Source of the DNA: Erwinia aphidicola
GTDB lineage: Bacteria; Pseudomonadota; Gammaproteobacteria; Enterobacterales; Enterobacteriaceae
Direction: 5' to 3'
NCBI RefSeq assembly: GCF_024169515.1
Contig: NZ_JAMKCQ010000001.1
Span: 4,402,001 to 4,466,000, forward strand
Length of the DNA stretch: 64,000 nt
Below the pieces are notes generated by a model, which saw only the letters and a program-made list of their open reading frames with translations, had not been told where the DNA came from and made no database searches. Both the position numbers and the translations under genes were made by a program. Shown here one piece after another: positions 31,418 to 60,229 of the stretch (position 1 is its first letter; every line of letters starts with the position of its first letter).

Positions 31418-31554
31418 GCCGCCGGGCCAGTTAACGGGCATCCTGCCAGTGAAATAAATCGTCGTACAGTTAAACTATAGAAGTAAATACTGTAATCGCC
31501 GGGGTGAAACGGCGATTTTTAGATTATCGGCAGGTCCAGCAGTAGCTTTATGGT

Positions 31555-37373: not shown

Positions 37374-37896
37374 ACCGTGCCGATGGCTGGCTGGCGCGGT
37401 GATAGCGCTGGCGTTGATAGCCGTTAATGTCAGCATCTGGCAAAAAGAGCAGTTGCTGAAGCAAGGCGCGGTGATGATTTTACCCCTTGCCCCGGTTGAC
37501 CCGCGATCCCTGATGCAGGGTGATTACATGGCGCTGAACTATGCCCTCACCCGTCCTCTGGAACTGACGTTGTATCAACAGGCTGAGTCCTGCGGCGCGA
37601 CCCTATCAGCGCCATGCCTGCCCACCAGCGGAACCCTGATTGTTGACCTCGATGCGCAGCGTCACGCGACTCAGGCCCGCTTTGATCAGGGTGAACCTCT
37701 GCAGCCGAATCAGCTACGGGTGAAGTACCATCAACATTACGGTTCGCTGACCGTAGGCACTAACGCCTGGTTCTTTCAGGAAGGTCATGCCGACAGATTC
37801 GCGCAGGCACGTTACGGGGCATTTCGGGTGGGAAGCGATGGCACGGCTCTCCTGACGGATCTGCTTAATGAGCAGGGTAAAGCGATTCAGCCTTGA
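37360..37896 (+). CDS. GDYXXLXY-family membrane-anchored protein
   Basis: The 178-residue product has one N-terminal membrane helix (about 10-26) and the family signature GDYMALNY at 54-61, in PVDPRSLMQGDYMALNY, with a further GAFRVGSDG near the end. The bulk should be periplasmic. Function is unknown. I use GTG 37360 because GGAGG lies 5 bases upstream; GTG 37354 and ATG 37366 are alternatives. It overlaps the DUF2157 gene, its common partner. Confidence 0.85.
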   Translation: MKMYKPCRWLAGAVIALALIAVNVSIWQKEQLLKQGAVMILPLAPVDPRSLMQGDYMALNYALTRPLELTLYQQAESCGATLSAPCLPTSGTLIVDLDAQRHATQARFDQGEPLQPNQLRVKYHQHYGSLTVGTNAWFFQEGHADRFAQARYGAFRVGSDGTALLTDLLNEQGKAIQP

Positions 37897-42229: not shown

Positions 42230-45200
42230 TTAGCCAACCACTAATTGATGGTTTGCCAGCAGCGTCGCCAGATCGGTGTGGACGTTGGTCAGCGTCGCGA
42301 TGGTCGTCATCGACTGCGCCGTGCCGCTGCCATCCAGATCAACCTTAATCACCGTGTTGTTACCTTCGGTGGTCACGCTCAGGTAATTCGCCAGATTGCC
42401 AACGCCTGAACCCAGCGTCGCGACGCCGTTAACGTAGCTGGCGTCCGCCGTACCGCTGTACCCGCTCGACTGCAACAGGTCACTCAGATCAAGACGGTCG
42501 GTATTCGCCGTCCCTTCCCAGGTCCCAACCTTGAAGCCGTTGATGGTGTCGACACCGTTGCCGCCGGTGGCATCGCTGCTGTCCAGCAACTTGTACAGCA
42601 GCGTGTCGTGCCCACCTTTACCCAGGTTGAAGGTGTCATTACCACCGCGTCCTTCGAACACGTTATTACCTGCACTGCCGGTGATAACATCGTCGTAATT
42701 CGACCCGGCAATCCCCTCGATATCCTTGAAGGTCGCCGTGTTGAATCCGGTGTTCTGTGCGCTGCTGCTGCTGAGATCTACCGTGACCCCGCTGGTGGCG
42801 TTTTTAAAATCGACGATATCCTGACCGCCGGTGGCGCTCCATGTCGCATGGTCTGACGAGCTGCTCCAGCCGCCGCCACCGTTGTAAACGTAGGTGCCGC
42901 TTTCAGCGATAAACGTGTCGTTATAGCCGGTGCCGGTGAGGGTGCCGCTGGTCCCGCCGTTCGCCGCGTCTGCGGTGAGCGAATAGCTGCTGGTGCCGTC
43001 GCCTGCGCTCAGGTCTGTCCAGGTGGCATTGGTGGACACGCCGTTGATGTTGCGCACCAGCACCGCCGAATACGTTTCATTCGGATCCAGACCGTAGAAG
43101 TTCACCAGCGCTGAGGAGTCGTTGACGCCTACGCCCGACTGGGCGTTGATGATCTGCGACGCCACCAGTTCACCGGCGGAGTTGTAGAGCTGCACGGTAT
43201 TGCCGTAGAACACGTTCATGCCTTCGCCGTCGAGAATGCGCAGGTGGAGAGCCGTGCCGTCCGCAATGCTGGCATTGTTGGCGATGTACACCACTTTGCC
43301 GTTTGCCTGCGACACCAGCAGATCCTGCGTACCGTTCCAGTCGTAATCGAGGGTCGCAATCCCCGTTACGTTGACCAGTGAGGAAGCAAGCGTACTGCTG
43401 CTCCAGCCTTTGCCGGTACCGTCGTTAACATACAGTTGGGCGGTCTGGCTGGCCGAATAGGTGCTGAACTTGATGATGTCCATGTCACCGTCGCCGTCCC
43501 AGTCCACGGCAGCTGACAGATAACCGGCGGACGCGGCATTGGTGGTCGATGTTTCGACAGCGGTTGGCGTGGTCAACAACGTTCCCTGCCCGCTGTTGTA
43601 GTAAATCGCACCGCCATAGTTGTAGCTGCCGTTAGGGTTCAGACCGGAAGAAATGTACAAATCCATCAGGCCGTCGCCGTTGAAATCCGCCCAGGTCATT
43701 GAGACGGCCGTGGTGGTGTTCGCGGCATTCGGCACAAAGACGTTGGCGATGTTCTGCGTTTCCGTCAGCGCACCTGTGCCACTGTTGTTGATCACCGTCA
43801 GCGCATAGGCACCGCTGCGGTTGGTATGCTGCACAATGTCGACCGTACCGTCATTGTTAATGTCCACGCCGGAAATTTCCCGGTAGGTGACCCCGGCAAG
43901 ACCGGCCGCTCCGTATGTACCATCTGGCGACAGCACCCCGTTGTTATTGACCAGATAGCTGCGGGAGTCGCCGCCTGCATCGCCGTATGCCATGTCCAGC
44001 CAGCCATCACCGGTTTTGTCATAAGCCATGATCCCGCCGTACCAGATGGTTGTGCCGATAGCCTGCTGACCGTAGGTATAAGTGCCATCCGTGTTCGCCG
44101 TCCATTTGCCCTGGATACTGCCGCCGTAGTTGGTTTCCGTCGCATAAATGTCTGAGGTGCCATTACGGTCGGTATCCGCCAGCGTATAACTCACCACGAT
44201 GTTGCCGCGGGAGTTGGTCAGCGTGGTGCCGCTATAGCTGTTCAGACCCGAGCTGGTGTAATCAGAGATACCGGTGACCACGTTCCACAAGCCACTGCTG
44301 TTCAGGCTGAATGCCATCGCATTGGTGGTGGTGGCCCCAGCGGTGCTCGCCCAGCTGGTGTCCACCGCCGTTTCGGCATAAACCACCAGAGAACCGTGGC
44401 TGATCCCCGCCTCGTTACCGTTGCCCGCGCTGCTTCTGACCTGTGCAGTCACATCATACGTCGCCAGTGCCAGTGAACCCGGCAGCTGCAAATACCAGGT
44501 GTTGTTGATCGGATCGACCACCACCGCACCGCCGGATTCCGAGGTATAGGTGACGCCGTTCACCACTACCTGTACATACATCCCCTCACCCAACGCTTCA
44601 GATAGCGTACCGCTGATGATCGGCGTCGTATCCTGGGTCGATTCACCGGTCACGGTGGCAATCGTGGTCGGAATCGAGGTATCGACCGTCAGGGTGAAGT
44701 CTGACGACGACGTGACGTTGCCCGCCAGATCCTGCGAGGTCGCGACGTAAATATAGGTCCCGTCAGCCAGCGCGGAATCCGAGAAGGTCCACGCCAGGCC
44801 CACCACCGTCGCGACGCCAACGTACACCCCGTTGCGGTAGATCTTCAGCACTTCGCCGTCGGCCAGCGCTTTGCTCAGCGTGCCGCTCAGCGTCGGCGCG
44901 GTTTCGTCGGTGTGGGTGCCGGAACCGAACGATCCCTGACGGTCCCCCTTATTGTCGGAATAGCTGGCGATAGTCGCCTGCGCTTCCGGGTTCAGCGTAT
45001 CAACCGTCACCCGCTGAGAACCGACCGCCCCGGTGTTACCCGCCAGATCGATCACCCGCACCTGCACGTTGTAAACGCCATCGCCGAGTACGGTACCGGT
45101 AGCGTCATAGCTCCAGGTGCGTCCGCGGGTGACGACGTCAATCCATGTCTGACCGCCATCGAGGCTGATCTGCGCCCATTCATCGCTCGCAAGCGTTGCA

Positions 45201-48200
45201 CTCAGGTTGCCGGAGAACGTCAGCGTGGTATCGCTGGTGATGAAATCATGGCTGTTATCACCGGTATCGGTGCTGATCGCGCCAATGGTGATGGCTTGCG
45301 ATGGCGCAGTGGTGTCAATCGTCACCACCTGCTGCGCGGTTTGGCCGACGTTACCGGCCTGATCGACCACGCGTACCTGATACAGCGTTTGCCCGTCGGT
45401 CAGCGTGCGACCATCGCTATAGCTCCACTTCAGGCCGGAGAGCGCAACGGTCGTCCAGCTCGCGCCGTTATCAATACTGATCTGCACCACTTCGCCCGCG
45501 CCCAGCGCCTGTCCGATAGAACCGGTCACGGTCAGCGAGGTATCACTGGTGATGAAATCGCTGGCAGACACACCGGTGTCGGTGGCGATGCTGTCGATGG
45601 TCACAGTTTTGCTGCTGTCCGGCGCCACGGTATCCACGGTGACAACCTGACTGGAGATGCTGCCCACGTTACCGGCGGCATCTACCACGCGAACATAGTA
45701 GGTGTAATCCCCGTCGGTCAGCGTGCGGTCATCAACGTACCTCCAGCGCGTGCCGATGGTGGTCGTATTGAGCCACGTCACCCCCCCATCAAGGCTGATC
45801 TGCGCATATTCATCCGCCGCCAGCGTCGCGCCGAGCGTGCCGCTCACGGTCAGCGAAGTGTCGCTGGTGACGAAATCGCTGCTGCTCAGACCGGTGTCGT
45901 TGCTGACAGCATCAATGCTGATGGTTTTACTGCTGTCCGGGGCGACGGTGTCGATGGTCACCACCTGACTGGCGGTTGCGCCGACGTTACCGGCCAGATC
46001 TACCACGCGCATCTGATAGTTGTAGTCGCCATCGGCCAGCGTACGGCTGTCGATGTAGGTCCACGTCAGGCCACTGATATTGACATCTTTCCAGGTGGTG
46101 CCGCCGTCGATGCTGATCTGCGCATATTCATCCGCATTCAGCGCCGCGCCCAGCGTGCCGCGCAGGTTGATGGTGTTATCGCTGGTGATGAAATCAGTAC
46201 TGCTCAGGCCGGTATCCTGCGAAACCGCATCGATAGTGATCGACTGGCTGGCCGTTGGCGCTACGGTGTCAATAACCACCGTTTTCGTCGCCGTCGAACC
46301 AACGTTCCCCGCCGCATCAATCACCCGGACGTTATAGGTGTATGACCCGTCCGCCAGCGCGCTGCCCGGGGCATAACTCCACGTGGTGCCCACCACGGTG
46401 AGCGTCTGCCAGCTGATGCCGCCGTCGAGGCTGATTTGCGCCGACTCGGCATTGCCCAGCGCCGCACTCAGCCCGCCTTTCAGCGTGATGGTGTTATCGC
46501 TGGTGACAAAGTCCGTATTGCTGCGCCCGGTATCTTCACTCAGCGAATCAATGGTGATGGTCATCGACGGCGCCGTGGTATCCACGGAAATCTCGTGGAT
46601 GTCGCTGCCGGTGTTGCCGATGCTGTTGGTGACGGAAGCGGTGATTGCGTAGTTATTGCCATCCGCCAGCGCTGACACCGCGTTGGCGCTGAGGTTGAGC
46701 GTCCAGCTCAGATCCGCCGCGACCGAAGTGGTGTACGTCTGCCCGTTGAGCGTCACGGTGACGAGGCTGTTCGCCGGTGCGGTGGTGGTGCCGCTGATAG
46801 CGAGCGAAGTGCCGTGCTCGGCGGCGTTCACCACGTCGTCCTGCGCGAAGGTGTTGATGCTTATGGTTGGCATCTCACCGCTCAGGGTAACGGACGATGC
46901 TGCCGACACCGGGTTGCCCGCCACATCACTGACGGATGCGCTGACGGTATAGCTGCCGTCCGCCGCGCCGAGGAAATCCGCCGCCGGAACGGTCACACTC
47001 CAGGTGCCGTCAGAGGCCACCGTGGCGTGATACTCACGGTGATTAAATGTGACGGTCACCGTCTGACCGGCTTCTGCGCTGGTTGTCCCGCCGATCGCCT
47101 GACCGGCATGCTGCTCGGCGGAGTTGATGATGTCATCACCGGCAATGGTGTTGATGGTCAGGGTCGGCGCGAGGGTATCGACAATCACCGACGCATTCGC
47201 CGACGCCGGGTTCCCGGCCACGTCGCTGGTGCTGGCGGTGACCGTCAGCGTGCCGTCCTGCAGGGCCGCAACGTCATTTTGCGGAACCTGCACCGACCAT
47301 AGGCCGTCGGCGCTCACCTGCGTGGTATAAGTGACGCCGTTCAGCGTCACGTGCACCGTTTGCCCCGCCTGCGCCGTCGTGGTGCCGCTCAGGGTTAACG
47401 CCTGGCCCAGCTCCGCTGCATTCAGGATCCCGTCCGCGGCGATCGGATTGATCAGCAGCGCCGGTGCGGTGGTATCAACCGTCACGTCATGCGTGGCGCT
47501 GACCGGGTTGCCTGCAGTATCGCTGGCGCTGGCTGTTACGGTGTAATTACCGTCAGTCAGTTTCGCCACATCGGTCGCCGGTATGCTTAGCGTCCAGTCA
47601 CCTTTGACATCCACCTGCACAGTGTAGGTTTTGCCGTTCAGCACGACGGCCACCTCTGTTCCGGACACCAGTTTTTCGCTGCTGCCGGACAGCGTCAGGC
47701 TGTTACCCTGTTCCGCCGCATTGATAATGTCGTCCTGCGCAATGGTATCGATGCTCAGGCTGAGGGCATCAGTAATGACGGTGATCAGATGGTCAGTGCT
47801 GCCGGTGTTGCCCGCGTTATCGGTAATGCTGACCGTAAATGTCGTATCACCGGAAGCCAATGCGCTAATGGCGTTGGCCGGAACGCCGATGCTCCAGTTA
47901 CCGCGGGCGTCAACCACGGTGGTGTAGGTATGGCCGTCGATCACCAGCGTCACCAGATTGCCTGCCTGCGTGCCGGTGCTGCCACCGGTGATCACCTGCG
48001 CCTGCGCATGTTCGGCGGTATTCAGCACATCGTCACCGGCGACGGTGTTGATGGTTACCACCGGCGCGGTCACGTCAACCAGCAATGAGCCGGTGGCGCG
48101 GCTGCTGTTACCGGCGATATCGCTGACGCTGGCGCTCACGGTGTAAGTCCCGTCAGCCAGCGCGCCTGCACTGGCCGCCGGTAGCGTGGTGCTCCACGTC

Positions 48201-51200
48201 CCGTCTGCCGCCACGTTCGCCGTGTAGGTCTGGCCGTTAAGCGTCAGGGTGACCTGCTGGCCGGCTTCGGCGGTGGAGGTTCCGCCGATCGCCACGTCCG
48301 CCCCCGCTTCCGCGCCGTTGAGCACGTTATCACCGGCGATGGTGTTGATGGTCAGGGTTGGCGCTGTCGCATCCACCTGCGCCGTATTTGCCGCCGTGGC
48401 GCCGTTGCCCGCCGCGTTGCTCACGCTCACGGACACCGTTGCGTCACCGTCTTTCAGTGCCTTCATGTCCGCTGCCGCCACGGTGATGCTCCAGCTGCCG
48501 TCGGCCTGCACGCGGGTGGTGTACTGATGACCGGCAAAGTTTACGCTGACATCGCGACCGGCTTCGACGTTCTGCGTGGTGCCGCTCAGGGTCAGATCCG
48601 CCGCTTTCTCCGCCGCGTTAATGATGCCGTCGCTGGCAATGGTATCGACGCCGATCGCCACGCTGCTCAGATCAACGGTGATGTTTTGCGTGATGGTCAC
48701 CGGGTTACCGGAGGCATCCGCGCCGCTGACGACGATCGCCAGCTGACCCGCAGGCCACTTCGCCACGTCTGCCGCCGGAACCGCCGCCGACCAGCTGCCG
48801 TTCGCGCCGACCGTGGCAGCATAATCAGTGCCGTTGACGGTCACGGTGACGCTGCTGCCCGCGGCGATATCAGAGCTGGTGCCGCTGATGATCTGGTTTT
48901 GATTAATCTCGATGCTGTTGACGATATCGTCACCGGCAACCGTATTGATGCGCAGGCCCGGCAATCCGGCGTCGATGCCGATCTGGCGATCGCCGCTGCC
49001 GGTATTGCCGTGTTGGTTGGTGACGCTCGCGCTGACGGTCAGGTCGCCGTCGCCCAGCGCCTGCAAATCGGCCGCCGGAACGCTGACGCTCCAGCTCAGA
49101 TCCGCCTGCACTTCGGCCTGGTAGGTGTGACCGCCGAGCGTAACGGTGACGGTGTCACCGGCCGCCGCGTTGCTCACGCGCCCGCTCAGGGTCTGGTCTG
49201 CCGCCGCTTCGGCGGCGTTGATGATGTTATCACCCGCCACAGCATTAATGATGACGGAAGGCAGCGAGGTATCAACCAGCAGGTTAGCGCTTTCGGTGAT
49301 GGCGTTGCCGACATCGCTGTTGGCGCTGGCTGTTACGCTGTAGTTGGCTTCCCCAAGCGCTGCCAGTGCGCTGGCCGGAACGGTCAGGCTCCAGACGCCC
49401 GCGGCAATTTGCGCGCTGTAAGTGACGCCGTTCAGCGTGACGCTGACCTGAGTGCCGTCACTCAGGTTGCTGCCGGTGCCGGAAATCGTTAGATCTGCAC
49501 CTTTTTCAACGGCGTTGAGTACGTTGTCCTGCGCGATAGCGTCAATGCTGATGCCCGGCAGGCCGGTATCTACGGTCACATTGTGCGTCTGCGAACCGGT
49601 ATTACCGGCGCTGTCAGTGATGCTGACGCTCACGGTGTAAGTGCCGTCAGAGATCCCGCCGATCGCGCTGGCCGGTACGCCGACGCTCCAGTTGCCGCTG
49701 GCATCCACCACGGTGTTATAGGTATGGCCGTCGATCACCACGCTCACGCTGTTACCGCTGACCGTACCCGTACTGCTGCCGCTGATCACCTGCGCCTGCG
49801 CGTGTTCGGTGCGGTTAATGACGTCGTCACCGGCGATGGTGTTGATGGTCACCACCGGCGCGGTCGCGTCAACCAGCAACGCGCTGGTCACCCCGGTGCG
49901 GTTACCGGCGATATCGCTGACGCTGGCGCTCACGGTATAGGTTCCGTCAGCCAGCGCGCCTGCACTCGCCGCCGGTAGCGTGGTGCTCCACGTCCCGTCT
50001 GCCGCCACGCTCGCCGTGAAGGTCTGACCGTTAAGCGTCAGGGTGACCTGCTGACCAGCTTCGGCGGTGGAGGTTCCGCCGATCGCCACGTCCGCCCCCG
50101 CTTCCGCGCCGTTGAGCACGTTATCACCGGCGATGGTGTTGATGGTCAGCGTTGGCGCAGCGGTATCCACTTGCGCCGTATTTGCCGCCGTGGCGCCGTT
50201 GCCCGCCGCGTTGCTCACGCTCACGGACACCGTTGCGTCGCCCTCTTTCAGCGCCGCCATGTCCGCTGCCGGGACGGTAACGCTCCAGCTGCCGTCGGCC
50301 TGCACGCGGGTGGTGTACTGATGACCGGCAAAGTTAACGCTCACATCGCGACCGGCTCCGACATTCAGCGTGGTGCCGCTCAGGGTCAGATCCGCCGCTT
50401 TCTCCGCCGCGTTAATGATGCCGTCGCTGGCGATGGTATCGACGCTGATTGCCACACTGGCGAGATCGACGTTGATATCGTTTGAAATCGTGACGCTGTT
50501 TCCGGCTGAACTGGTGCCGGTAACGGATACCGTCAGCGCGCCCGCAGGCCAGCTGGCAACGTCCGCTGCCGGAACCGCCGCTGACCAGCTGCCGTTGGCG
50601 GTCACGCTCGCGTGGTACTCAACGCCGTTAACCGTGACGGTGACGCTGCTGCCCGCGGTCAGGCCGGTGCTGGTGCCGCTGATGATCTGATTTTGATTAA
50701 TCTCGATGCTGTTGACGATGTCGTCACCGGCAACGGTATTGATGCGCAGGCCCGGCAAACCGGCGTCGATGACGATCTGGCGATCGCCGCTGCCGGTATT
50801 GCCGTGCTGGTTGGTGACGCTCGCGCTGACGGTCAGGTCGCCGTCGCCCAGCGCCTGCAAATCGGCCGCCGGAACGCTGACGCTCCAGCTCAGATCCGCC
50901 TGCACTTTGGCTTCGTAAGTGTGGCCGCCGAGCGTAACGGTGACGGTGTCCCCGGCCGCCGCGTTGCTCACGCGCCCGCTCAGGGTCTGATCGGCCACCA
51001 CTTCGGCTGCGTTGATGATGTCATCGCCCGCAATCATGCTGAGGGTCACCGACGGCAGCGCGCTGTCGACCAGTACGCCGTGCGTCGTGCTGCCGGTGTT
51101 GCCTGCGGCATCGACGGTGGAGGCGGTCAGGCTGTAATTCGCCTCGCCGAGCTGAGCCACATCCGCCGCCGGAACGTTCAGCGTCCACGCGCCGCCGCTG

Positions 51201-54200
51201 ACGCTGGCAGAGTAGTCCTTGCCGTTCAGGTTCAGCGTCACGGTGGAACCGTCCGCGCCGCTGCTGGTGCCGCTCACCGTCAGGGCTTCGCCTTTCTCGA
51301 TGGCGTTGATCACGTCGTCAGCCGCCACGGTACTGATGGTCAGCACCGGCGCGGCGGTGTCTACGGTCACCACGTGCGAGGCTGAGCCCGGATTGCCCGC
51401 CGCATCGGCGACAGTGGCGGTAATGGTGTAGCTTTTGTCAGCCAGACCGCTGACCACGGCGGCAGGCACGCCGACGCTCCAGTTGCCGCTGGCATCCACC
51501 GCAGCGGTGTAGCGGCTGCCGTCGATGACCACGGTGACCAGGCCGCCCGCCGGAACGCCGGTAGATGAACCGCTGATGATAAGGTTCTGCTGGTGTTCAT
51601 GGGCGTTGACAATGTCGTCTGCAGAAACGGTGTTGATGGCAAGCGTTGGCGCGGTCACGTCCACCAGTAACGCGCTGGTCACGCCGGTGCGGTTACCGGC
51701 GATATCGCTGACGCTGGCGCTCACGGTGTAAGTCCCGTCAGCCAGCCCTGCCGCATCTGCCGCCGGAACCGCCGTGCTCCAGGTGCCGTCCGCCGCCACG
51801 CTCGCCGTGTAGGTCTGGCCGTTAAGCGTCAGGGTGACCTGCTGACCGGCTTCGGCGGTGGAGGTTCCGCCGATCGCCACGTCCGCCCCCGCTTCCGCGC
51901 CGTTAAGCACGTTATCACCGGCGATGGTGTTGATGGTCAGGGTTGGCGCAGCGGTATCCACTTCCACGGTATTCGCTGCCGTGGCGCCGTTGCCCGCCGC
52001 GTTAGTCACGCTCACGGACACCGTTGCGTCGCCGTCTTTCAGCGCCGCCATGTCCGCTGCCGGAACGGTGACGCTCCAGCTGCCGTCCGTTTCTACCTGC
52101 GCGGTATAGCTATGACCGGCGAAAATCACCGTGACCTTCTGACCGGCTTCGACATTCAGCGTGGTGCCGCTCAGGGTCAGGTCCGCCGCTTTCTCCGCCG
52201 CGTTAATGATGTCATCGGCCGCGACAGTGTCGATAGCAATCGCCACACTGGTGAGATCCACGGTGATATCGTTTGAAATCGTGACGCTGTTACCGGCTGA
52301 ACTGGTGCCGGTAACGGATACCGTCAGCGCGCCCGCAGGCCAGCTGGCAACGTCCGCTGCCGGAACCGCCGCTGACCAGCTGCCGTTGGCGGTCACGGTC
52401 GCGTGGTACTCAACGCTGTTAACCGTGACGGTGACGCTGCTGCCTGCGGTCAGGCCGGTGCTAGTGCCGCTGATGATCTGATTCTGATTGATCTCGATGC
52501 TGTTGACGATGTCGTCACCGGCAACGGTATTGATGCGCAGGCCGGGGATCGCGGCGTCAATAGCAATGTCGCGCTCACCGGATCCGGTGTTGCCGCTGAT
52601 ATTGGTCACCGTTGCGGAGACTTTCAGCGCGCCGTCGCCCATGGCAGCGAGATCGGCGGCAGGGATCGTCAGGCTCCACGTAAAATCATCTTCGACGGTG
52701 GCGTAATACGTTTTTCCACCCACGGTGACGGTCACCTGCTGTCCCGCTTCCGCATGGATAACGGTGCCGCCGATCGCCTGATCGGCCTTCACTTCGGTGG
52801 CGTTGATGATGTCATCACCGGCCACCACGTTGATGGTCACCGCCGGGCTGTCGGAGGAAGTTTGCAGCCCTTTGCTCACTGACCCGCTGTTGCCGACATC
52901 ATCGGTGCCGCGCACGCTAACCTGATACAACGCCTGGCCCAGATTCGCCAGATCGCTGGCCGGAATGTCCGCGCTCCATGCGCCGTCGGCCACGGTGCCC
53001 TGATACTCCAGACCGTTAAGGGTAACGATAACCGTCACGCCATCCATCAGACCGGTCACAGTGCCGGTGATGGTCAGCGTTGAAAGCGCTTCGGTGGCGT
53101 TAAGAATGTTGTCGCCGCCTGCCATGTCGTTGATGGTAAAGACCGGCGCGGCAGTATTGACCACCACGTTTTGCCCGGCCGAACCGACGTTACCGGCGGT
53201 GTCTGCCGCGCTGGCGGTGACCTTATAGCTGCCGTCCGCGAGGCCGCTGATGATGCTGGCCGGTACGCCGACGCTCCAGTTGCCGCTGGCATCCACCACG
53301 GTGTTATAGCTATGGCCGTCGATCACCACGTTCACGATGTTACCGCTCACCGTACCCGTGCTGCTGCCGCTGATCACCAGCGCCTGCGCGTGTTCGGTAC
53401 TGTTAATGACGTCGTCACCGGCGATGGTGTTGATGGTCACTTCCGGCGCGGTCGCGTCAACCTGCAATGAGCCGCTGGCGCGGCTGCTGTTACCGGCGAT
53501 ATCGCTGACGCTGGCGCTCACGGTGTAAGTCCCGTCAGCCAGCCCTGCCGCATCTGCCGCCGGTAGCGTGGTGCTCCACGTCCCGTCCGCCGCCACGCTC
53601 GCCGTGTAGGTCTGGCCGTTAAGCGTCAGGGTGACCTGCTGACCGGCTTCGGCGGTGGACGTTCCGCCGATCGCCACGTCCGCCCCCGCTTCCGCGCCGT
53701 TAAGCACGTTGTCACCGGCGATGGTGTTGATGGTCAGCGTTGGCGCTGTCGCATCCACCAGCGCCGTATTTGCCGCCGTGGCGCCGTTGCCCGCCGCGTT
53801 GCTCACGCTCACGGACACCGTTGCGTCGCCCTCTTTCAGCGCCGCCATGTCCGCTGCCGGGACGGTAACGCTCCAGCTGCCGTCGGCCTGCACGCGGGTG
53901 GTGTACTGATGACCGGCAAAGTTAACGCTCACATCGCGACCGGCTCCGACATTCAGCGTGGTGCCGCTCAGGGTCAGATCCGCCGCTTTCTCCGCCGCGT
54001 TAATGATGCCGTCGCTGGCGATGGTATCGACGCTGATTGCCACACTGGCGAGATCGACGTTGATATCGTTTGAAATCGTGACGCTGTTTCCGGCTGAACT
54101 GGTGCCGGTAACGGATACCGTCAGCGCGCCCGCAGGCCAGCTGGCAACGTCCGCTGCCGGAACCGCCGCTGACCAGCTGCCGTTGGCGGTCACGCTCGCG

Positions 54201-57200
54201 TGGTACTCAACGCCGTTAACCGTGACGGTGACGCTGCTGCCCGCGGTCAGGCCGGTGCTGGTGCCGCTGATGATCTGATTTTGATTAATCTCGATGCTGT
54301 TGACGATGTCGTCACCGGCAACGGTATTGATGCGCAGGCCCGGCAAACCGGCGTCGATGACGATCTGGCGATCGCCGCTGCCGGTATTGCCGTGCTGGTT
54401 GGTGACGCTCGCGCTGACGGTCAGGTCGCCGTCGCCCAGCGCCTGCAAATCGGCCGCCGGAACGCTGACGCTCCAGCTCAGATCCGCCTGCACTTTGGCT
54501 TCGTAAGTGTGGCCGCCGAGCGTAACGGTGACGGTGTCCCCGGCCGCCGCGTTGCTCACGCGCCCGCTCAGGGTCTGATCGGCCACCACTTCGGCTGCGT
54601 TGATGATGTCATCGCCCGCAATCATGCTGAGGGTCACCGACGGCAGCGCGCTGTCGACCAGTACGCCGTGCGTCGTGCTGCCGGTGTTGCCTGCGGCATC
54701 GACGGTGGAGGCGGTCAGGCTGTAATTCGCCTCGCCGAGCTGAGCCACATCCGCCGCCGGAACGTTCAGCGTCCACGCGCCGCCGCTGACGCTGGCAGAG
54801 TAGTCCTTGCCGTTCAGGTTCAGCGTCACGGTGGAACCGTCCGCGCCGCTGCTGGTGCCGCTCACCGTCAGGGCTTCGCCTTTCTCGATGGCGTTGATCA
54901 CGTCGTCAGCCGCCACGGTACTGATGGTCAGCACCGGCGCGGCGGTGTCTACGGTCACCACGTGCGAGGCTGAGCCCGGATTGCCCGCCGCATCGGCGAC
55001 AGTGGCGGTAATGGTGTAGCTTTTGTCAGCCAGACCGCTGACCACGGCGGCAGGCACGCCGACGCTCCAGTTGCCGCTGGCATCCACCGCAGCGGTGTAG
55101 CGGCTGCCGTCGATGACCACGGTGACCAGGCCGCCCGCCGGAACGCCGGTAGATGAACCGCTGATGATAAGGTTCTGCTGGTGTTCATGGGCGTTGACAA
55201 TGTCGTCTGCAGAAACGGTGTTGATGGCAAGCGTTGGCGCGGTCACGTCCACCAGTAACGCGCTGGTCACGCCGGTGCGGTTACCGGCGATATCGCTGAC
55301 GCTGGCGCTCAGGGTATAGGTTCCGTCGGTCAGCCCTGCCGCATCTGCCGCCGGAACCGCCGTGCTCCAGGTGCCGTCCGCCGCCACGCTCGCCGTGTAG
55401 GTCTGGCCGTTAAGCGTCAGGGTGACCTGCTGACCGGCTTCGGCGGTGGAGGTTCCGCCGATCGCCACGTCCGCCCCCGCTTCCGCGCCGTTAAGCACGT
55501 TATCACCGGCGATGGTATTGATGGTCAGCGTTGGCGCAGCGGTATCCACTTGCGCCGTGTTTGCCGCCGTGGCGCCGTTGCCCGCCGCGTTGCTCACGCT
55601 CACGGACACCGTTGCGTCGCCCTCTTTCAGCGCCGCCATGTCCGCTGCCGGAACGGTGACGCTCCAGCTGCCGTCGGCCTGCACGCGGGTGGTGTACTGA
55701 TGACCGGCAAAGTTTACGCTCACATCGCGACCGGCTTCGACATTCAGCGTGGTGCCGCTCAGGGTCAGATCCGCCGCTTTCTCCGCCGCGTTAATGATGT
55801 CGTCGCTGGCAATGCTATCGACGCTGACCGCTACGCTGCTCAGATCGACGGTGATGTTTTGCGTGATGGTCACCGGGTTACCGGAGGCATCCGCGCCGCT
55901 GACGACGATCGCCAGCTGACCCGCAGGCCACTTCGCCACGTCTGCCGCCGGAACCGCCGCCGACCAGCTGCCGTTGGCGCCGACCGTGGCAGCATAATCG
56001 GTGCTGTTAACGGTCACGGTGACGCTGCTGCCCGCGGCGATATCAGTGCTGGTGCCGCTGATGATCTGGTTTTGATTAATCTCGATGCTGTTGACGATAT
56101 CGTCACCGGCAACCGTATTGATGCGCAGGCCCGGTAAACCGGCGTCGATGACGATCTGGCGATCGCCGCTGCCGGTATTGCCGTGCTGGTTGGTGACGCT
56201 CGCGCTGACGGTTAAATCGCCGTCGCCCAGCGCCTGCAAATCGGCCGCCGGAACGTTGACGCTCCAGCTCAGATCCGCCTGTACTTTAGCCTGGTAGGTG
56301 TGGCCGCCGAGCGTAACGGTGACGGTGTCCCCGGCCGCCGCGTTGCTCACGCGCCCGCTCAGGGTCTGATCGGCCGCCACTTCGGCTGCGTTGATGATGT
56401 CATCGCCCGCGACCATGCTGATGTACACCGAGGGCAGCGCGCTGTCGACCAGTACGCCGTGCGTCGTGCTGCCGGTGTTGCCTGCGGCATCAACGGTGGA
56501 GGCGGTCAGGCTGTAATTCGCTTCGCCGAGCTGAGCCACATCCGCCGCCGGAACGTTCAGCGTCCACGCGCCGCCGCTGACGCTGGCAGAGTAGTCTTTG
56601 CCGTTCAGGTTTAGCGTCACGGTGGAACCGTCCGCGCCGCTGCTGGTGCCGCTCACCGTCAGGGCTTCGCCTTTCTCGATGGCGTTGATCACGTCGTCAG
56701 CCGCCACGGTACTGATGGTCAGCACCGGCGCGGCGGTCTCTACGGTCACCACGTGCGAGGCTGACCCCGGATTGCCCGCCGCATCGGCGCCAGTGGCGGT
56801 AATGGTGTAGCTTTTGTCAGCCAGACCGCTGACCACGGCGGCAGGCACGCCGACGCCCCAGTTGCCGCTGGCATCCACCGCAGCGGTGTAGCGGCTGCCG
56901 TCGATGACCACGGTGACCAGGCCGCCCGCCGGAACGCCAATAGATGAACCGCTGATGATGAGGTTCTGCTGGTGTTCATGCGCGTTAATAATGTCGTCGG
57001 CAGAAACGGTGTTGATGACCAGCGTTGGCGCAGTAAAGTCCACCAGTAACGCGCTGGTCACGCCGGTGCGGTTACCGGCGATATCGCTGACGCTGGCGCT
57101 GACGGTATAGATGCCGTCGCTCAGCCCTGCCGCATCTGCCGCCGGAACCGCCGTGCTCCAGGTGCCGTCCGCCGCCACGCTCGCCGTGTAGGTCTGGCCG

Positions 57201-60200
57201 TTAAGCGTCAGGGTGACCCGCTGGCCGGCTTCGGCGGTGGAGGTTCCGCCGATCGCCACGTCCGCCCCCGCTTCCGCGCCGTTGAGCACGTTATCACCGG
57301 CGATAGTGTTGATGGTCAGCGTTGGCGCAGCGGTATCCACGGTGACATCCTGCACGGCGCTGGCGTTGTTGCCCGCCACGTTGGTCACGCTGACACTCAC
57401 CGTGGTGTCGCCGTCTTTCAGATTGCGGATATCTGCCGCCGGAACGATGACGCTCCAGCTGCCGTCGGCCTGCACGCTGGCGTGATAAGTGCCATTCGCG
57501 AAATTAATCGTCACGCTCTGGCCAGCCTCCACGCCCTGCGTGGTACCGCTAAGTGTGACATCCGCCGCTTTTTCAGCCGCATTTAGCACGTTATCCAGCG
57601 CAACGCTATCAATGGCAATCGCCACGCTGCTCAGATCCACGTTAATAATATTGGCAATGCTGACGCTGTTGCCCGACGTGTCGGAGCCGGTGACGCTAAC
57701 GCTTAGCGCGCCCGCAGGCCAGCTGGCGACGTCCGATGCCGGAATCGCCGCAGACCAGCTGCCGTTCGCGCCGACCGTAGCATGATAATCGATGCCGTTT
57801 ACGTTGACGGTGACGCTGCTGCCTGCGGCGATATCAGAGCTGGTGCCGCTGATGATCTGGTTCTGACTGATTTCGATGCTGTTGACAATGTCGTCGCCCG
57901 CAATGGTATCGATGCGCAGGCCCGGCAAACCGGCGTCGATGATAATCTCGCGATCGCCGCGACCGGTGTTGCCGTGCTGATTGGTGACGCTCGCGCTGAC
58001 GGTTAAATCGCCGTCGCCTAGCGCCTGCAAATCAGCCGCCGGAACGCTGACGCTCCAGCTCAGGTCGTCCTGCACGGTGGCCTGGTAGGTGTTGCCACCC
58101 AGCGTCACGATCACGGTATCGCCCGCCGCCGCATGGGTCACTCTGCCGCTCAGAGCCTGGTCAGCGGTGATTTCAGTGGCATTGATGATGTCATCGCCTG
58201 CGGTCACGTTAACCGTGACGACAGGCAGCACGGAATCCACCTGCACCTGATGCGTCGCAGTGCCGGTATTGCCCTCGGCGTCTGTGCTGACTGCCGTCAG
58301 GGTGTAATGGGCTTCGCCGAGCTTTGCGACGTCGCTGGCCGGAATGCTGACCGACCAGTTGCCGCCGCCGACGACGGTGGTGGTGTACTCCACGCCGTTA
58401 AGGGTCAGAGCGATCTGCGTACCCTCAGCACTGTTGCTGGTCCCGGTCACCTCCAGCGCCTGGCCTTTGGCTTCGGCGTTAACCACGTTCTCAAAGGCGA
58501 CGGTATCAATCGTCAGTTGCGGCAGTTCGGACGACAGCACCACGGTCGCGTTCTGACTGCCGGTGTTACCCGCTTTATCAGTGATGCTGACGTTCACATC
58601 ATAGCTGCCGTCGGCCAGCGCGCTGAAAACGGATGCCGGTAAACCGATGCTCCATGTGCCGTCGGCGGCAAGCGTCGTGGTGTAAGTCTGGCCGTTGATG
58701 CTCAGCGTGACAGTATCGCCCGCTTCGCCGCCGGTGCTGCTTCCGCTGACCATCTGCGCCTGAGCCTGTTCGAGGCTGTTAAGGATGTTGTCACCGGCGA
58801 TGGTGTCGATGGTCACGACCGGCACGGTGGTGTCAACGCGCAGATCGTGCGTGATAGATGTGCGGTTCCCCGCCGCATCGCTGACGGAGGCGCTCAGCGT
58901 GACAGTGCCGTCTGCCAGCGCGCCCGCCTGTGCAGCCGGAACGTTCACTGACCAGTTACCGTTTGCCTCAACGCTTGCGGTATAGGTCACTCCGTTGAGC
59001 ACCAGCGTCACTACCTGCCCGGCTTCGGCATTTGAGGTGCCGCTGACGGTCAGATCGTGCCCCGCTTCGGCGGCATTCAGAATATCGTCGCCCGCCAGCG
59101 TGGCAATAGTCAGCGTAGGTGCCTGCGTATCCACTGACAGCGTAGATGCGGAGGTGATGGTGTTGCCAGCGCTGTCTACACCGCTGACCTGAACGGTGTG
59201 GACACCGTCCGCCAGCGTCTGCGCGTCTGCGGCAGGCACAGTGATTGTCCAGCTGCCATCCGCCGCAACGGTGGTCTGCCAGGCCTTACCGTTAAGGGAA
59301 ACGGTGACGGTGGTACCCGCCGCCAGATTGGCGCTCTGGCCGGAAATGGCAACGTCCGCGCCGGCTTCGGCCGCGTTCAGCACGTTGTCCCCCGCCACGG
59401 TGTCGAGGGTAAGGGAAGCCTGCGCGGTAACAATGTTCAGAGTGATCGACCCGGCGCTGGTGGTCGAGCCGTTGCTCTCCTGCACCACGACCCAGGTGTG
59501 CGCACCGGCGCTCTGCGCGGCGAGCTGCGCTGTCCACTGGCCGTTGGTGCCGACGATGGCTGTGGCAATTACATGGCCGCTGGTATCGACAATCGAAATC
59601 TCCGCGCCCGGATAGCCGGTACCGCTGAAGGTGGGTCGGGTATCGTCAGTCACGGCCTGATTAGCAAGAATACCCTGACTGTCGCCCTGAGTGTCGGTCA
59701 CGAGGAAAGTCGGTTTTGCGACCTCCACCGCCTGAGTGTTATCAATGACTTCGGTTTTTCCGTCACTGCCGCCGCCGTGGCCGAGCAGGGCTCCGGCCGC
59801 GCCTGCGCCCAGCACACCGGCCAGCAGATACGGCCACTCCACGGTGACTTCGGCGGTGCTGAGCAGCAGCGGATCAATGCCCGGCAGTGGGGTTTCCACC
59901 GCCGTCAGCGCAAACGCCGGGGTATCATGAGGCGCAGTGGCGTCGGTGAAATTCACCTCCGTCATCTGCTGGTTTTCATCCTGAAAGACCAGTTTATTCT
60001 CGTCTTTCTCACCAATATTCTCGAAATATCCTACGCAGCGAATGACCGATCCATCCTGCATATGAATAATCAGATCGTTGCCACTGCGCTCGTAGCTGGC
60101 GACATTCTTCACTGCGTCGTGAATAACGACAATGCCGGATTCATTCATCGCAACAGCGGTATTACCTTCTGCAGTGAAAGTATTTTTAAGCGACGTTTTA

Positions 60201-60229
60201 CGAGAGATAATATCCATGGTTCTGCTCAT
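42230..60229 (-). CDS. Giant BapA/SiiE-like type I secreted adhesin, 5,999 residues
   Basis: Predicted cell-surface adhesin for biofilm or host attachment. Order: BapA-type prefix (1-130, SLKNTFTAEGNTAVAMNESG region); Gly/Ala-rich segment (137-155); a first Ig-like domain (165-270); 43 Ig-like repeats of about 100 residues, each opening with a D-[DNG]-[IV]-[LIV]-N motif (270-4554); five repeats of about 105 residues with SxDTG..DFITSD (4555-5080); two further repeats (to about 5297); an FG-GAP-like region with six DxDxDG-type calcium motifs, such as DINNDGTVD and DWDGDGDMD (about 5300-5740); then RTX motifs GSNYDDVITG and GGNDTFNLG and a C-terminal secretion region ending HQLVVG. No Sec signal, as expected for type I export. 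ATG 60229 has AAGGA upstream; ATG 60217 is the alternative. The frame is unbroken over 18 kb. Confidence 0.93.
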   Translation of the reverse strand: MSRTMDIISRKTSLKNTFTAEGNTAVAMNESGIVVIHDAVKNVASYERSGNDLIIHMQDGSVIRCVGYFENIGEKDENKLVFQDENQQMTEVNFTDATAPHDTPAFALTAVETPLPGIDPLLLSTAEVTVEWPYLLAGVLGAGAAGALLGHGGGSDGKTEVIDNTQAVEVAKPTFLVTDTQGDSQGILANQAVTDDTRPTFSGTGYPGAEISIVDTSGHVIATAIVGTNGQWTAQLAAQSAGAHTWVVVQESNGSTTSAGSITLNIVTAQASLTLDTVAGDNVLNAAEAGADVAISGQSANLAAGTTVTVSLNGKAWQTTVAADGSWTITVPAADAQTLADGVHTVQVSGVDSAGNTITSASTLSVDTQAPTLTIATLAGDDILNAAEAGHDLTVSGTSNAEAGQVVTLVLNGVTYTASVEANGNWSVNVPAAQAGALADGTVTLSASVSDAAGNRTSITHDLRVDTTVPVVTIDTIAGDNILNSLEQAQAQMVSGSSTGGEAGDTVTLSINGQTYTTTLAADGTWSIGLPASVFSALADGSYDVNVSITDKAGNTGSQNATVVLSSELPQLTIDTVAFENVVNAEAKGQALEVTGTSNSAEGTQIALTLNGVEYTTTVVGGGNWSVSIPASDVAKLGEAHYTLTAVSTDAEGNTGTATHQVQVDSVLPVVTVNVTAGDDIINATEITADQALSGRVTHAAAGDTVIVTLGGNTYQATVQDDLSWSVSVPAADLQALGDGDLTVSASVTNQHGNTGRGDREIIIDAGLPGLRIDTIAGDDIVNSIEISQNQIISGTSSDIAAGSSVTVNVNGIDYHATVGANGSWSAAIPASDVASWPAGALSVSVTGSDTSGNSVSIANIINVDLSSVAIAIDSVALDNVLNAAEKAADVTLSGTTQGVEAGQSVTINFANGTYHASVQADGSWSVIVPAADIRNLKDGDTTVSVSVTNVAGNNASAVQDVTVDTAAPTLTINTIAGDNVLNGAEAGADVAIGGTSTAEAGQRVTLTLNGQTYTASVAADGTWSTAVPAADAAGLSDGIYTVSASVSDIAGNRTGVTSALLVDFTAPTLVINTVSADDIINAHEHQQNLIISGSSIGVPAGGLVTVVIDGSRYTAAVDASGNWGVGVPAAVVSGLADKSYTITATGADAAGNPGSASHVVTVETAAPVLTISTVAADDVINAIEKGEALTVSGTSSGADGSTVTLNLNGKDYSASVSGGAWTLNVPAADVAQLGEANYSLTASTVDAAGNTGSTTHGVLVDSALPSVYISMVAGDDIINAAEVAADQTLSGRVSNAAAGDTVTVTLGGHTYQAKVQADLSWSVNVPAADLQALGDGDLTVSASVTNQHGNTGSGDRQIVIDAGLPGLRINTVAGDDIVNSIEINQNQIISGTSTDIAAGSSVTVTVNSTDYAATVGANGSWSAAVPAADVAKWPAGQLAIVVSGADASGNPVTITQNITVDLSSVAVSVDSIASDDIINAAEKAADLTLSGTTLNVEAGRDVSVNFAGHQYTTRVQADGSWSVTVPAADMAALKEGDATVSVSVSNAAGNGATAANTAQVDTAAPTLTINTIAGDNVLNGAEAGADVAIGGTSTAEAGQQVTLTLNGQTYTASVAADGTWSTAVPAADAAGLTDGTYTLSASVSDIAGNRTGVTSALLVDVTAPTLAINTVSADDIVNAHEHQQNLIISGSSTGVPAGGLVTVVIDGSRYTAAVDASGNWSVGVPAAVVSGLADKSYTITATVADAAGNPGSASHVVTVDTAAPVLTISTVAADDVINAIEKGEALTVSGTSSGADGSTVTLNLNGKDYSASVSGGAWTLNVPAADVAQLGEANYSLTASTVDAAGNTGSTTHGVLVDSALPSVTLSMIAGDDIINAAEVVADQTLSGRVSNAAAGDTVTVTLGGHTYEAKVQADLSWSVSVPAADLQALGDGDLTVSASVTNQHGNTGSGDRQIVIDAGLPGLRINTVAGDDIVNSIEINQNQIISGTSTGLTAGSSVTVTVNGVEYHASVTANGSWSAAVPAADVASWPAGALTVSVTGTSSAGNSVTISNDINVDLASVAISVDTIASDGIINAAEKAADLTLSGTTLNVGAGRDVSVNFAGHQYTTRVQADGSWSVTVPAADMAALKEGDATVSVSVSNAAGNGATAANTALVDATAPTLTINTIAGDNVLNGAEAGADVAIGGTSTAEAGQQVTLTLNGQTYTASVAADGTWSTTLPAADAAGLADGTYTVSASVSDIAGNSSRASGSLQVDATAPEVTINTIAGDDVINSTEHAQALVISGSSTGTVSGNIVNVVIDGHSYNTVVDASGNWSVGVPASIISGLADGSYKVTASAADTAGNVGSAGQNVVVNTAAPVFTINDMAGGDNILNATEALSTLTITGTVTGLMDGVTVIVTLNGLEYQGTVADGAWSADIPASDLANLGQALYQVSVRGTDDVGNSGSVSKGLQTSSDSPAVTINVVAGDDIINATEVKADQAIGGTVIHAEAGQQVTVTVGGKTYYATVEDDFTWSLTIPAADLAAMGDGALKVSATVTNISGNTGSGERDIAIDAAIPGLRINTVAGDDIVNSIEINQNQIISGTSTGLTAGSSVTVTVNSVEYHATVTANGSWSAAVPAADVASWPAGALTVSVTGTSSAGNSVTISNDITVDLTSVAIAIDTVAADDIINAAEKAADLTLSGTTLNVEAGQKVTVIFAGHSYTAQVETDGSWSVTVPAADMAALKDGDATVSVSVTNAAGNGATAANTVEVDTAAPTLTINTIAGDNVLNGAEAGADVAIGGTSTAEAGQQVTLTLNGQTYTASVAADGTWSTAVPAADAAGLADGTYTVSASVSDIAGNRTGVTSALLVDVTAPTLAINTVSADDIVNAHEHQQNLIISGSSTGVPAGGLVTVVIDGSRYTAAVDASGNWSVGVPAAVVSGLADKSYTITATVADAAGNPGSASHVVTVDTAAPVLTISTVAADDVINAIEKGEALTVSGTSSGADGSTVTLNLNGKDYSASVSGGAWTLNVPAADVAQLGEANYSLTASTVDAAGNTGSTTHGVLVDSALPSVTLSMIAGDDIINAAEVVADQTLSGRVSNAAAGDTVTVTLGGHTYEAKVQADLSWSVSVPAADLQALGDGDLTVSASVTNQHGNTGSGDRQIVIDAGLPGLRINTVAGDDIVNSIEINQNQIISGTSTGLTAGSSVTVTVNGVEYHASVTANGSWSAAVPAADVASWPAGALTVSVTGTSSAGNSVTISNDINVDLASVAISVDTIASDGIINAAEKAADLTLSGTTLNVGAGRDVSVNFAGHQYTTRVQADGSWSVTVPAADMAALKEGDATVSVSVSNAAGNGATAANTAQVDTAAPTLTINTIAGDNVLNGAEAGADVAIGGTSTAEAGQQVTLTLNGQTFTASVAADGTWSTTLPAASAGALADGTYTVSASVSDIAGNRTGVTSALLVDATAPVVTINTIAGDDVINRTEHAQAQVISGSSTGTVSGNSVSVVIDGHTYNTVVDASGNWSVGVPASAIGGISDGTYTVSVSITDSAGNTGSQTHNVTVDTGLPGISIDAIAQDNVLNAVEKGADLTISGTGSNLSDGTQVSVTLNGVTYSAQIAAGVWSLTVPASALAALGEANYSVTASANSDVGNAITESANLLVDTSLPSVIINAVAGDNIINAAEAAADQTLSGRVSNAAAGDTVTVTLGGHTYQAEVQADLSWSVSVPAADLQALGDGDLTVSASVTNQHGNTGSGDRQIGIDAGLPGLRINTVAGDDIVNSIEINQNQIISGTSSDIAAGSSVTVTVNGTDYAATVGANGSWSAAVPAADVAKWPAGQLAIVVSGADASGNPVTITQNITVDLSSVAIGVDTIASDGIINAAEKAADLTLSGTTQNVEAGRDVSVNFAGHQYTTRVQADGSWSITVAAADMKALKDGDATVSVSVSNAAGNGATAANTAQVDATAPTLTINTIAGDNVLNGAEAGADVAIGGTSTAEAGQQVTLTLNGQTYTANVAADGTWSTTLPAASAGALADGTYTVSASVSDIAGNSSRATGSLLVDVTAPVVTINTVAGDDVLNTAEHAQAQVITGGSTGTQAGNLVTLVIDGHTYTTVVDARGNWSIGVPANAISALASGDTTFTVSITDNAGNTGSTDHLITVITDALSLSIDTIAQDDIINAAEQGNSLTLSGSSEKLVSGTEVAVVLNGKTYTVQVDVKGDWTLSIPATDVAKLTDGNYTVTASASDTAGNPVSATHDVTVDTTAPALLINPIAADGILNAAELGQALTLSGTTTAQAGQTVHVTLNGVTYTTQVSADGLWSVQVPQNDVAALQDGTLTVTASTSDVAGNPASANASVIVDTLAPTLTINTIAGDDIINSAEQHAGQAIGGTTSAEAGQTVTVTFNHREYHATVASDGTWSVTVPAADFLGAADGSYTVSASVSDVAGNPVSAASSVTLSGEMPTISINTFAQDDVVNAAEHGTSLAISGTTTAPANSLVTVTLNGQTYTTSVAADLSWTLNLSANAVSALADGNNYAITASVTNSIGNTGSDIHEISVDTTAPSMTITIDSLSEDTGRSNTDFVTSDNTITLKGGLSAALGNAESAQISLDGGISWQTLTVVGTTWSYAPGSALADGSYTYNVRVIDAAGNVGSTATKTVVIDTVAPTASQSITIDAVSQDTGLSSTDFITSDNTINLRGTLGAALNADEYAQISIDGGTTWKDVNISGLTWTYIDSRTLADGDYNYQMRVVDLAGNVGATASQVVTIDTVAPDSSKTISIDAVSNDTGLSSSDFVTSDTSLTVSGTLGATLAADEYAQISLDGGVTWLNTTTIGTRWRYVDDRTLTDGDYTYYVRVVDAAGNVGSISSQVVTVDTVAPDSSKTVTIDSIATDTGVSASDFITSDTSLTVTGSIGQALGAGEVVQISIDNGASWTTVALSGLKWSYSDGRTLTDGQTLYQVRVVDQAGNVGQTAQQVVTIDTTAPSQAITIGAISTDTGDNSHDFITSDTTLTFSGNLSATLASDEWAQISLDGGQTWIDVVTRGRTWSYDATGTVLGDGVYNVQVRVIDLAGNTGAVGSQRVTVDTLNPEAQATIASYSDNKGDRQGSFGSGTHTDETAPTLSGTLSKALADGEVLKIYRNGVYVGVATVVGLAWTFSDSALADGTYIYVATSQDLAGNVTSSSDFTLTVDTSIPTTIATVTGESTQDTTPIISGTLSEALGEGMYVQVVVNGVTYTSESGGAVVVDPINNTWYLQLPGSLALATYDVTAQVRSSAGNGNEAGISHGSLVVYAETAVDTSWASTAGATTTNAMAFSLNSSGLWNVVTGISDYTSSGLNSYSGTTLTNSRGNIVVSYTLADTDRNGTSDIYATETNYGGSIQGKWTANTDGTYTYGQQAIGTTIWYGGIMAYDKTGDGWLDMAYGDAGGDSRSYLVNNNGVLSPDGTYGAAGLAGVTYREISGVDINNDGTVDIVQHTNRSGAYALTVINNSGTGALTETQNIANVFVPNAANTTTAVSMTWADFNGDGLMDLYISSGLNPNGSYNYGGAIYYNSGQGTLLTTPTAVETSTTNAASAGYLSAAVDWDGDGDMDIIKFSTYSASQTAQLYVNDGTGKGWSSSTLASSLVNVTGIATLDYDWNGTQDLLVSQANGKVVYIANNASIADGTALHLRILDGEGMNVFYGNTVQLYNSAGELVASQIINAQSGVGVNDSSALVNFYGLDPNETYSAVLVRNINGVSTNATWTDLSAGDGTSSYSLTADAANGGTSGTLTGTGYNDTFIAESGTYVYNGGGGWSSSSDHATWSATGGQDIVDFKNATSGVTVDLSSSSAQNTGFNTATFKDIEGIAGSNYDDVITGSAGNNVFEGRGGNDTFNLGKGGHDTLLYKLLDSSDATGGNGVDTINGFKVGTWEGTANTDRLDLSDLLQSSGYSGTADASYVNGVATLGSGVGNLANYLSVTTEGNNTVIKVDLDGSGTAQSMTTIATLTNVHTDLATLLANHQLVVG
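50173..51723 (-). repeat. 1,551-bp repeat block in the adhesin, copy 1
   Basis: Matches 53761-55311 base for base at every place compared (offset exactly 3,588 bp, two six-domain cassettes). The match starts with GCGCCGTATTTGCCGCCG and stops where GGCGCTCACGG meets GGCGCTCAGGG. The intermediate cassette is more divergent. Confidence 0.85.
53761..55311 (-). repeat. 1,551-bp repeat block in the adhesin, copy 2
   Basis: Partner of 50173-51723. It covers about five Ig-like domains. Identity this long inside a diverged array points to recent recombination or gene conversion between cassettes. Confidence 0.85.

Follow-up and report, generated by a model that had tools for sequence, protein, structure and literature searches.

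The stretch analysed here, hereafter the window, comprises 64,000 nucleotides of the Erwinia aphidicola genome (positions 4402001-4466000 of a 4.74-Mb contig in a 3-contig genome). An open reading frame (ORF) of 5,999 amino acids (aa) in the window encodes a giant adhesin, in which a BapA_N prefix-like domain is followed by an array of 43 Ig-like domains of 98-100 aa each (D01 to D43; window positions 59413 down to 46565) and by a C-terminal part with further repeats (Table 1). Most of these Ig-like domains belong to six unlike types, A to F, which recur in fixed order as a six-domain cassette.

The Big_13 profile (PF19077) was matched both in the array domain that was scanned and in the scanned C-terminal stretch of the adhesin. 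The six Big_13 stretches of the C-terminal part constituted a second Ig-like zone past the 43-domain array. The profiles for the TolC-type channel, the ABC transporter, and the HlyD-type adaptor encoded beside the adhesin all passed their cut-offs, and the identical gene order is kept in the siiEA loci of Escherichia coli. With its BapA_N prefix, its long Ig-like array, and the adjoining tolC, ABC transporter, and HlyD genes, the protein is a BapA/SiiEA-family stalk adhesin, which is predicted from its neighbour genes to be type I secreted. By its transporter, the closest named relative was E. aphidicola JCM 21238 (99% identity). The transporter of that strain was present on two contigs, which represent either a redundant assembly or a true duplication.

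Table 1. Coordinates of the adhesin gene, its parts, and the adjoining secretion genes in the window.
Feature	Position	Strand	Evidence or remark
Giant BapA/SiiEA-type adhesin	42230..60229	-	ORF; PF22783 BapA_N N-terminal; PF19077 Big_13, FG-GAP, and RTX repeat C-terminal
BapA_N prefix-like domain, aa 5-132	59834..60217	-	PF22783, 1.4e-22, 80.1 bits vs cut-off 27
D01, cap domain 'n', outside the six-fold order	59117..59413	-	Best matches off six-multiples; outside type clades
Cassette C1, D02-D07, A-F, divergent end cassette	57320..59116	-	Mean identity 0.61-0.65 to other cassettes
Cassette C2, D08-D13	55529..57319	-	Domain map and cassette identities
Cassette C3, D14-D19	53738..55528	-	Domain map and cassette identities
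Donor tract in C3, 1,551 bp	53761..55311	-	Exact repeat, lag 3588 bp
Cassette C4, D20-D25, divergent B, C, and D domains	51941..53737	-	Domain map and identities
Cassette C5, D26-D31, protein 99% identical to C3	50150..51940	-	Domain map and identities
Recipient tract in C5, 1,551 bp identical to C3	50173..51723	-	D30 replaced relative to JCM 21238
Cassette C6, D32-D37	48356..50149	-	Domain map and cassette identities
Partial cassette AB, D38-D39	47759..48355	-	AB-like pair at same place in most orthologues
Cap domains '1234', D40-D43, outside the six-fold order	46565..47758	-	Tail 3, 4 recognised in most orthologues
Additional Big_13 Ig-like domains	44501..46564	-	PF19077, 6 stretches
C-terminal FG-GAP repeats and RTX nonapeptide repeat	42233..44500	-	PF13517, PF00353
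Type I secretion ABC transporter, LssB family	39876..42119	-	TIGR03375, 3.1e-250
HlyD-type periplasmic adaptor	38683..39879	-	TIGR01843, 1.2e-101
TolC-type outer membrane channel	60315..61682	-	TIGR01844, 3.2e-98

Domain order and repeats in the array

Domains D02 to D39 were arranged as (ABCDEF)x6-AB, with cassette lengths of 1797, 1791, 1791, 1797, 1791, and 1794 bp, in order, from D02-07 to D32-37. The sequence-only reading had proposed a fixed A-F order with a spacing of 1,791-1,797 bp, which was confirmed for D02-D39, with D01 and D40-D43 standing outside the order. Mean protein identity between domains was 0.748, 0.750, and 0.762 at lags of 6, 12, and 18 domains, and 0.411-0.422 at the remaining lags in the range 1 to 17. 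Pairs at six-domain multiples averaged 0.736, compared with a mean of 0.461 and a maximum of 0.515 over 5,000 permutations of the domain order. In a maximum-likelihood domain tree, each of the types A-F formed one clade, and none of 200 label shuffles was as good; clades A and C were less supported (84/68 and 76/91), and the long rows D22 and D34 met, which is a warning for the reading of this tree. Neighbouring domains did not appear as each other's closest relatives, so that the grouping by type expected from the earlier reading was borne out.

At the DNA level, all 74 exact maximal repeats of at least 40 bp lay at six-domain multiples. Exact repeats in the window gene were in register in all 116 cases at >=30 bp, in 158 out of 166 at 25 bp, and in 213 out of 226 at 20 bp, and no exact repeat of >=30 bp was located off the six-domain multiples. 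The unit of DNA homology is therefore the six-domain cassette. Tandem Repeats Finder reported nothing, as expected from its longest period of 500 bp, which is below the cassette length.

Among the cassettes, the adjacent C2 and C3 were 0.92 identical, and C4 was divergent despite its mid-array place (0.61-0.72 to the other cassettes). A 12-domain super-order, with C3C4 duplicated as C5C6, was rejected, since protein identity was 0.99 between C3 and C5 and 0.71 between C4 and C6; replacement fits these values better. An origin of the cassette from a unit of three domains found no support in the window protein, in which identity was 0.419 at lag 3 versus 0.412-0.422 at neighbouring lags. Over 59 proteins of the family, lags 3 and 9 were raised just slightly (0.426 and 0.430 versus 0.406-0.418).

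Cassettes C3 and C5 are non-adjacent, yet share 1,551 identical bases. The window D30 was 77% identical to D30 of E. aphidicola JCM 21238, the record of which is a scaffold-level assembly, and 98.7% identical to D18, while the ends of the adhesin gene were 98-99% identical between the window and JCM 21238. In the outgroup Rahnella rivi, D30 was of the same allele kind as in JCM 21238 (0.83 vs 0.74). This pattern across the three sequences most likely reflects a replacement of part of C5 by C3 in the window lineage, which would have occurred in register and with no change in length. The newest event seen in the window is thus an overwriting and not the addition of a cassette. Further, for each of the six types, third-codon-position identity between domains of the same type was higher within the window protein than between it and the R. 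rivi protein, as would be expected from concerted evolution.

Orthologues and the lengths of their arrays

Orthologues were searched for with the N-terminal 272 aa of the adhesin. From 44 transporter loci, 35 were used in this search, and a match was found in every genome chosen from them (15 of 15 and 20 of 20). Matches were also obtained in one genus with hits in records named Enterobacter and Lelliottia (35 of 61 genomes), in the genus of Rahnella victoriana (7 of 14 genomes), and in an even sample of the order (7 of 394 genomes, E <= 1e-40). Of the 35 other genomes searched in the genus to which the window belongs, G017 alone had a close N-terminus (48% identity), and its array of 34 domains ended in a 3,727-aa frame. 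The Rahnella orthologues were 80-87% identical to the window protein at the N-terminus, and the flank tree placed the window and E. aphidicola JCM 21238 among the Rahnella proteins. Given this patchy spread, horizontal transfer of the adhesin is likely. In R. victoriana JZ-GX1 (NZ_CP089920.1), the adhesin and secretion genes were carried on a 723-kb plasmid.

A total of 59 family proteins were analysed, of which 53 had an intact C-terminus in the same frame; the others (G468, G017, G066, G477, G070, and G486) were left out of the length comparison and of the flank tree for want of one. This sample of 59 is biased to long open frames, and many of the orthologues come from draft assemblies. In the genus containing the Enterobacter and Lelliottia records, 29 of the 35 matches were examined, the other 6 having frames of <3,500 aa. 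From the second set of chosen genomes, 11 of 21 matches were taken, the other 10 being frames of 603-3,107 aa, one with an internal stop; G072 (L101, near a contig edge) was outside the analysis. For E. coli, six of eight loci were analysed, none of them from a record titled O157:H7. The two excluded siiEA genes are annotated with an internal stop (L156) or a frameshift (L162), so that some E. coli may have lost the adhesin. The locus was also present in NZ_CP141089.1 (L158), an E. coli record of 4.94 Mb that is labelled as a plasmid but probably represents a chromosome. Array ends were cut back with a '34' tail rule, which changed the count of R. bonaserana from 50 to 49 and that of Rosenbergiella from 29 to 28. 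Edaphovirga had 98 domains by this rule and 97 by eye, and 97 was entered on the tree.

Among the 53 proteins, arrays of 43 domains were the most frequent (n = 23), followed by those of 37 (8), 55 (5), 49 (4), and 52 (3); arrays of 51, 67, and 31 domains were found twice each, and those of 98, 94, 46, and 28 once each. The number of domains was 6k+7 (31, 37, 43, 49, 55, or 67) in 44 of the 53 orthologues. The nine proteins off this rule were six from E. coli (52, 52, 52, 51, 51, and 46) and those of Edaphovirga, Pluralibacter, and Rosenbergiella, although the by-eye count of 97 for Edaphovirga would fit. The in-register proteins were arranged as n-(ABCDEF)k-AB-1234, apart from some positions assigned to another type: the type predicted from position was correct in 1,515 of 1,624 domains (41 in-register proteins), the tail was commonly typed AA34 instead of 1234, and the largest deviation was seen in two 67-domain Pseudocitrobacter proteins. 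A tree of the non-array parts required a minimum of 22 changes in domain number and of 6 changes in its modulo-6 class. Given random modulo-6 steps, the probability of >=16 in-register changes of 22 was 9.5e-9, an approximate value that depends on parsimony minima, a quick tree, and a very long Edaphovirga branch.

Related strains also differed in repeat number, with 46, 51, or 52 domains in E. coli and 37 versus 49 in two strains named R. victoriana, although the window adhesin and that of E. aphidicola JCM 21238 both have 43. The E. coli alleles of 46 and 52 domains, both from records titled complete genome, differed by one clean 1,800-bp deletion and were otherwise almost identical. A recent duplication was rejected for this pair, as the two sites in the longer allele were just 79% alike. 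The 46-domain junction was found at >=99% identity in 86 records, and the 52-domain length was common in E. coli (20,801-20,805 bp in 29 of the 31 full-span rows among 60 matches listed). Another pair, G515 and G516, was rejected as a single clean event, because 450 mismatches remain after one 1,797-bp deletion.

The steps of about 600 residues, or six domains, that had been predicted from the window hold between species, within E. coli, and between the two R. victoriana-named strains. The accompanying claim that the adhesin grew by duplicating six-domain blocks was sustained in its unit and its steps, with the amendments that the newest window event was length-neutral and that steps other than six occur. 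The cassette order is common to several genera, and therefore the array was not built solely in the window lineage.

Recombination register and rival explanations

We consider it probable that the adhesin is a higher-order-repeat rod, n-(ABCDEF)k-AB-1234, in which recombination finds long identity just at six-domain multiples and thereby keeps the register. Long recombinable homology is almost confined to domains of the same type, and recombination partners would therefore nearly always be six-domain multiples apart. RecA-type recombination, comprising unequal crossover, deletion, and gene conversion, would act between same-type domains, and the resulting gains, losses, and overwritings would hold the six-domain register. 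Recombination in register would in turn keep same-type domains alike, which may produce a self-maintaining register and length steps of ~600 residues. Once DNA identity has decayed, short-homology deletions could break the register; in E. coli, between-site identity was low and a single-domain loss was found next to a whole-cassette loss.

Several observations weigh against this explanation. All six analysed E. coli genes are without three domains found in Escherichia sp. E1V33, and two of the six have lost one further domain according to the domain alignment. Comparison of GPEC1337 with KE47 (6,026 mismatches) and with MS1718 (1,121 mismatches) gave no clean junction, and the one-domain loss in GPEC1337 therefore rests on that alignment. 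The arrays of Pluralibacter (94 domains) and Rosenbergiella (28) are out of register and include half cassettes. In Escherichia sp. E1V33, 2 of 10 exact repeats of >=30 bp were out of register. In the family, pairs of >70% identity were detected at lags of 5, 9, and 11 (2, 4, and 4 pairs, respectively; e.g., in E. coli GPEC1337 and Rosenbergiella). In Cedecea and the 67-domain Pseudocitrobacter kind, the six-type order is kept even though nearly all long exact repeats are gone, and therefore descent or selection holds the order too. In addition, repeats may have collapsed in the orthologues from draft assemblies.

Selection could account for the period if the cassette is a functional or structural unit, such as a turn of a superhelix or a spaced pattern of ligand or calcium sites, and arrays with non-multiples of six are removed. 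The identity of types A-F is kept across genera, with D and F in register in 257 of 257 domains each, the order outlasts the long DNA repeats, and the cap domains at either end are mostly retained, all of which would suit such a unit. However, intact frames with 52, 51, 46, 94, and 28 domains do exist, the 52-domain length being common in E. coli, and a similar stalk in the same genus shows no period at all. This stalk belongs to a second giant adhesin of the genome, also BapA_N-like (6,062 aa, 56 Ig domains; within contig positions 125000-143700, locus L150). No period was found in it or in five congeneric homologues (56-58 domains), in which best partners at six-multiples numbered 4-9 of 56-58. 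The six-domain habit is therefore specific to the cassette family and is no general rule of Ig-like stalks. We regard selection on the cassette as a possible but rather unlikely explanation of the period.

The period could also be a by-product of avoiding similar neighbours, if duplication of several domains at once is favoured because identical adjacent Ig domains would misfold, with the number six as a historical accident. None of the 2,608 adjacent pairs of the cassette family (0 pairs) exceeded 70% identity (maximum 0.60), whereas 877 of 2,313 lag-6 pairs did so. In the accessible portions of two earlier papers, it is suggested that selection against aggregation may favour multi-domain duplications (PMC1553488), and low inter-module identity is argued to limit misfolding and size change by slippage (PMC4647330). 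In contrast, region II of MpAFP is described as having ~120 identical neighbours (PMC4083281, in the part available). In the second adhesin and its homologues, 5 of 335 adjacent pairs and 0 of 305 lag-6 pairs exceeded 70% identity, with neighbours up to 93% identical in the second adhesin (maximum 0.93). Moreover, neighbours in the cassette family differ from each other barely more than other pairs of unlike type do (0.406 at lag 1 versus 0.409-0.426 at lags 2-5). Neighbour avoidance is thus a plausible but rather unlikely source of the period. It is very improbable that collapsed or duplicated repeats in the assemblies account for part of the near-identical cassettes and stepped lengths: several orthologues are drafts and the JCM 21238 transporter (99% identity) lies on two contigs, but the window is on a contig of 4.74 Mb in a genome of 3 contigs, many stepped lengths are on chromosome-size contigs, and the E. 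coli 46- and 52-domain alleles are in complete-genome records, the 46-domain junction being found in 86 records.

In its full form, the recombination explanation treats the adhesin as the bacterial counterpart of the titin super-repeats and states that divergence of the six types locks the recombination register, that length is nearly digital in several genera (6k+7, with k from 4 to at least 10 and probably 15), that near-identical domains are never neighbours, and that the register decays to single-domain loss once recombination stops. Our confidence in this combined statement is evenly divided.

Relation to known stalk proteins and significance

The SiiEA/BapA-related adhesins, including SiiE of Salmonella, likewise have a BapA_N prefix, a long Ig-like stalk, and the gene order tolC-adhesin-ABC-HlyD, and the orthologue is named siiEA, 'BapA-related adhesin SiiEA', in E. 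coli records. The E. coli OI-28 operon encodes similar kinds of genes and Ig-like repeats, and Ca2+-dependent adherence is reported for it in the accessible text (PMC12758282); this operon presumably corresponds to the siiEA locus. Neither a six-domain cassette nor a 6k+7 rule for SiiE/BapA-type adhesins was found in the open-access literature as far as its text was available, subscription papers being outside the scope of the search. LapG had no match among six nearby ORFs in a Pfam scan, a genome-wide search for lapG and lapD not having been made. A gene for an EAL-domain protein (30734-31441) lies ~7 kb from the secretion genes, and a link of the adhesin to c-di-GMP is conceivable. Neighbouring genes at window positions 35166-37896 encode a DUF2157/DUF4401 protein and then a GDYXXLXY protein.

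In the periscope proteins SasG, Rib, CdrA, and Sgo_0707, stalk length is described as varying with repeat number via intragenic recombination of near-identical DNA repeats (PMC8201768 and PMC9704523, in the parts available). In those descriptions the repeats are highly identical in tandem and of one domain type or a G5/E pair, whereas the unit in the window adhesin consists of six unlike domains. Adjacent domains in the cassette family are not highly identical (maximum 0.60), in contrast to periscope proteins, and at the cassette level C2 and C3 reach 0.92, so that the fit depends on how the repeat is defined. In the titin A-band, the super-repeats at the centre are described as closest to the prototype and those at the ends as having diverged most (PMC10665226), and for nebulin seven-domain (module) units with block duplication are reported (PMC1553488). 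Both are eukaryotic muscle proteins, which share with the window adhesin ordered types duplicated as blocks, a likeness of architecture. The end cassette C1 is divergent, as described for the titin ends, but the mid-array C4 is divergent as well, unlike in titin. Modules A-G of the Acinetobacter BAP, in the description available, show no fixed six-type period across genera. Overall, the adhesin combines a SiiE/BapA-like stalk with super-repeats that resemble those of titin.

Among solved structures, the closest in sequence was MpAFP region II (4p99, 1.6e-51), an extender from Marinomonas that is described as a Ca2+-stiffened rod of ~190 A per four domains (PMC4083281). The ~120 repeats given for this region are identical single domains, unlike the six-type cassettes of the window adhesin. 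Taking the spacing of this relative, one cassette would correspond to ~28 nm of calcium-stiffened rod, and arrays of 31-97 domains would extend over ~150 to 460 nm. The number of cassettes, k, probably sets the stand-off of the C-terminal part from the cell.

In the usual description, a stalk adhesin alters its length through the gain or loss of copies of a single repeat. For the window adhesin, six-domain steps predicted from one sequence held true for 44 of the 53 orthologues, and one step of this size could be traced between two E. coli alleles. The family provides a natural length series of one adhesin, from 31 to ~97 domains, on which the importance of stalk length could be tested, and it is a clean system for the question of whether recombination or selection determines the unit by which repeat proteins grow.

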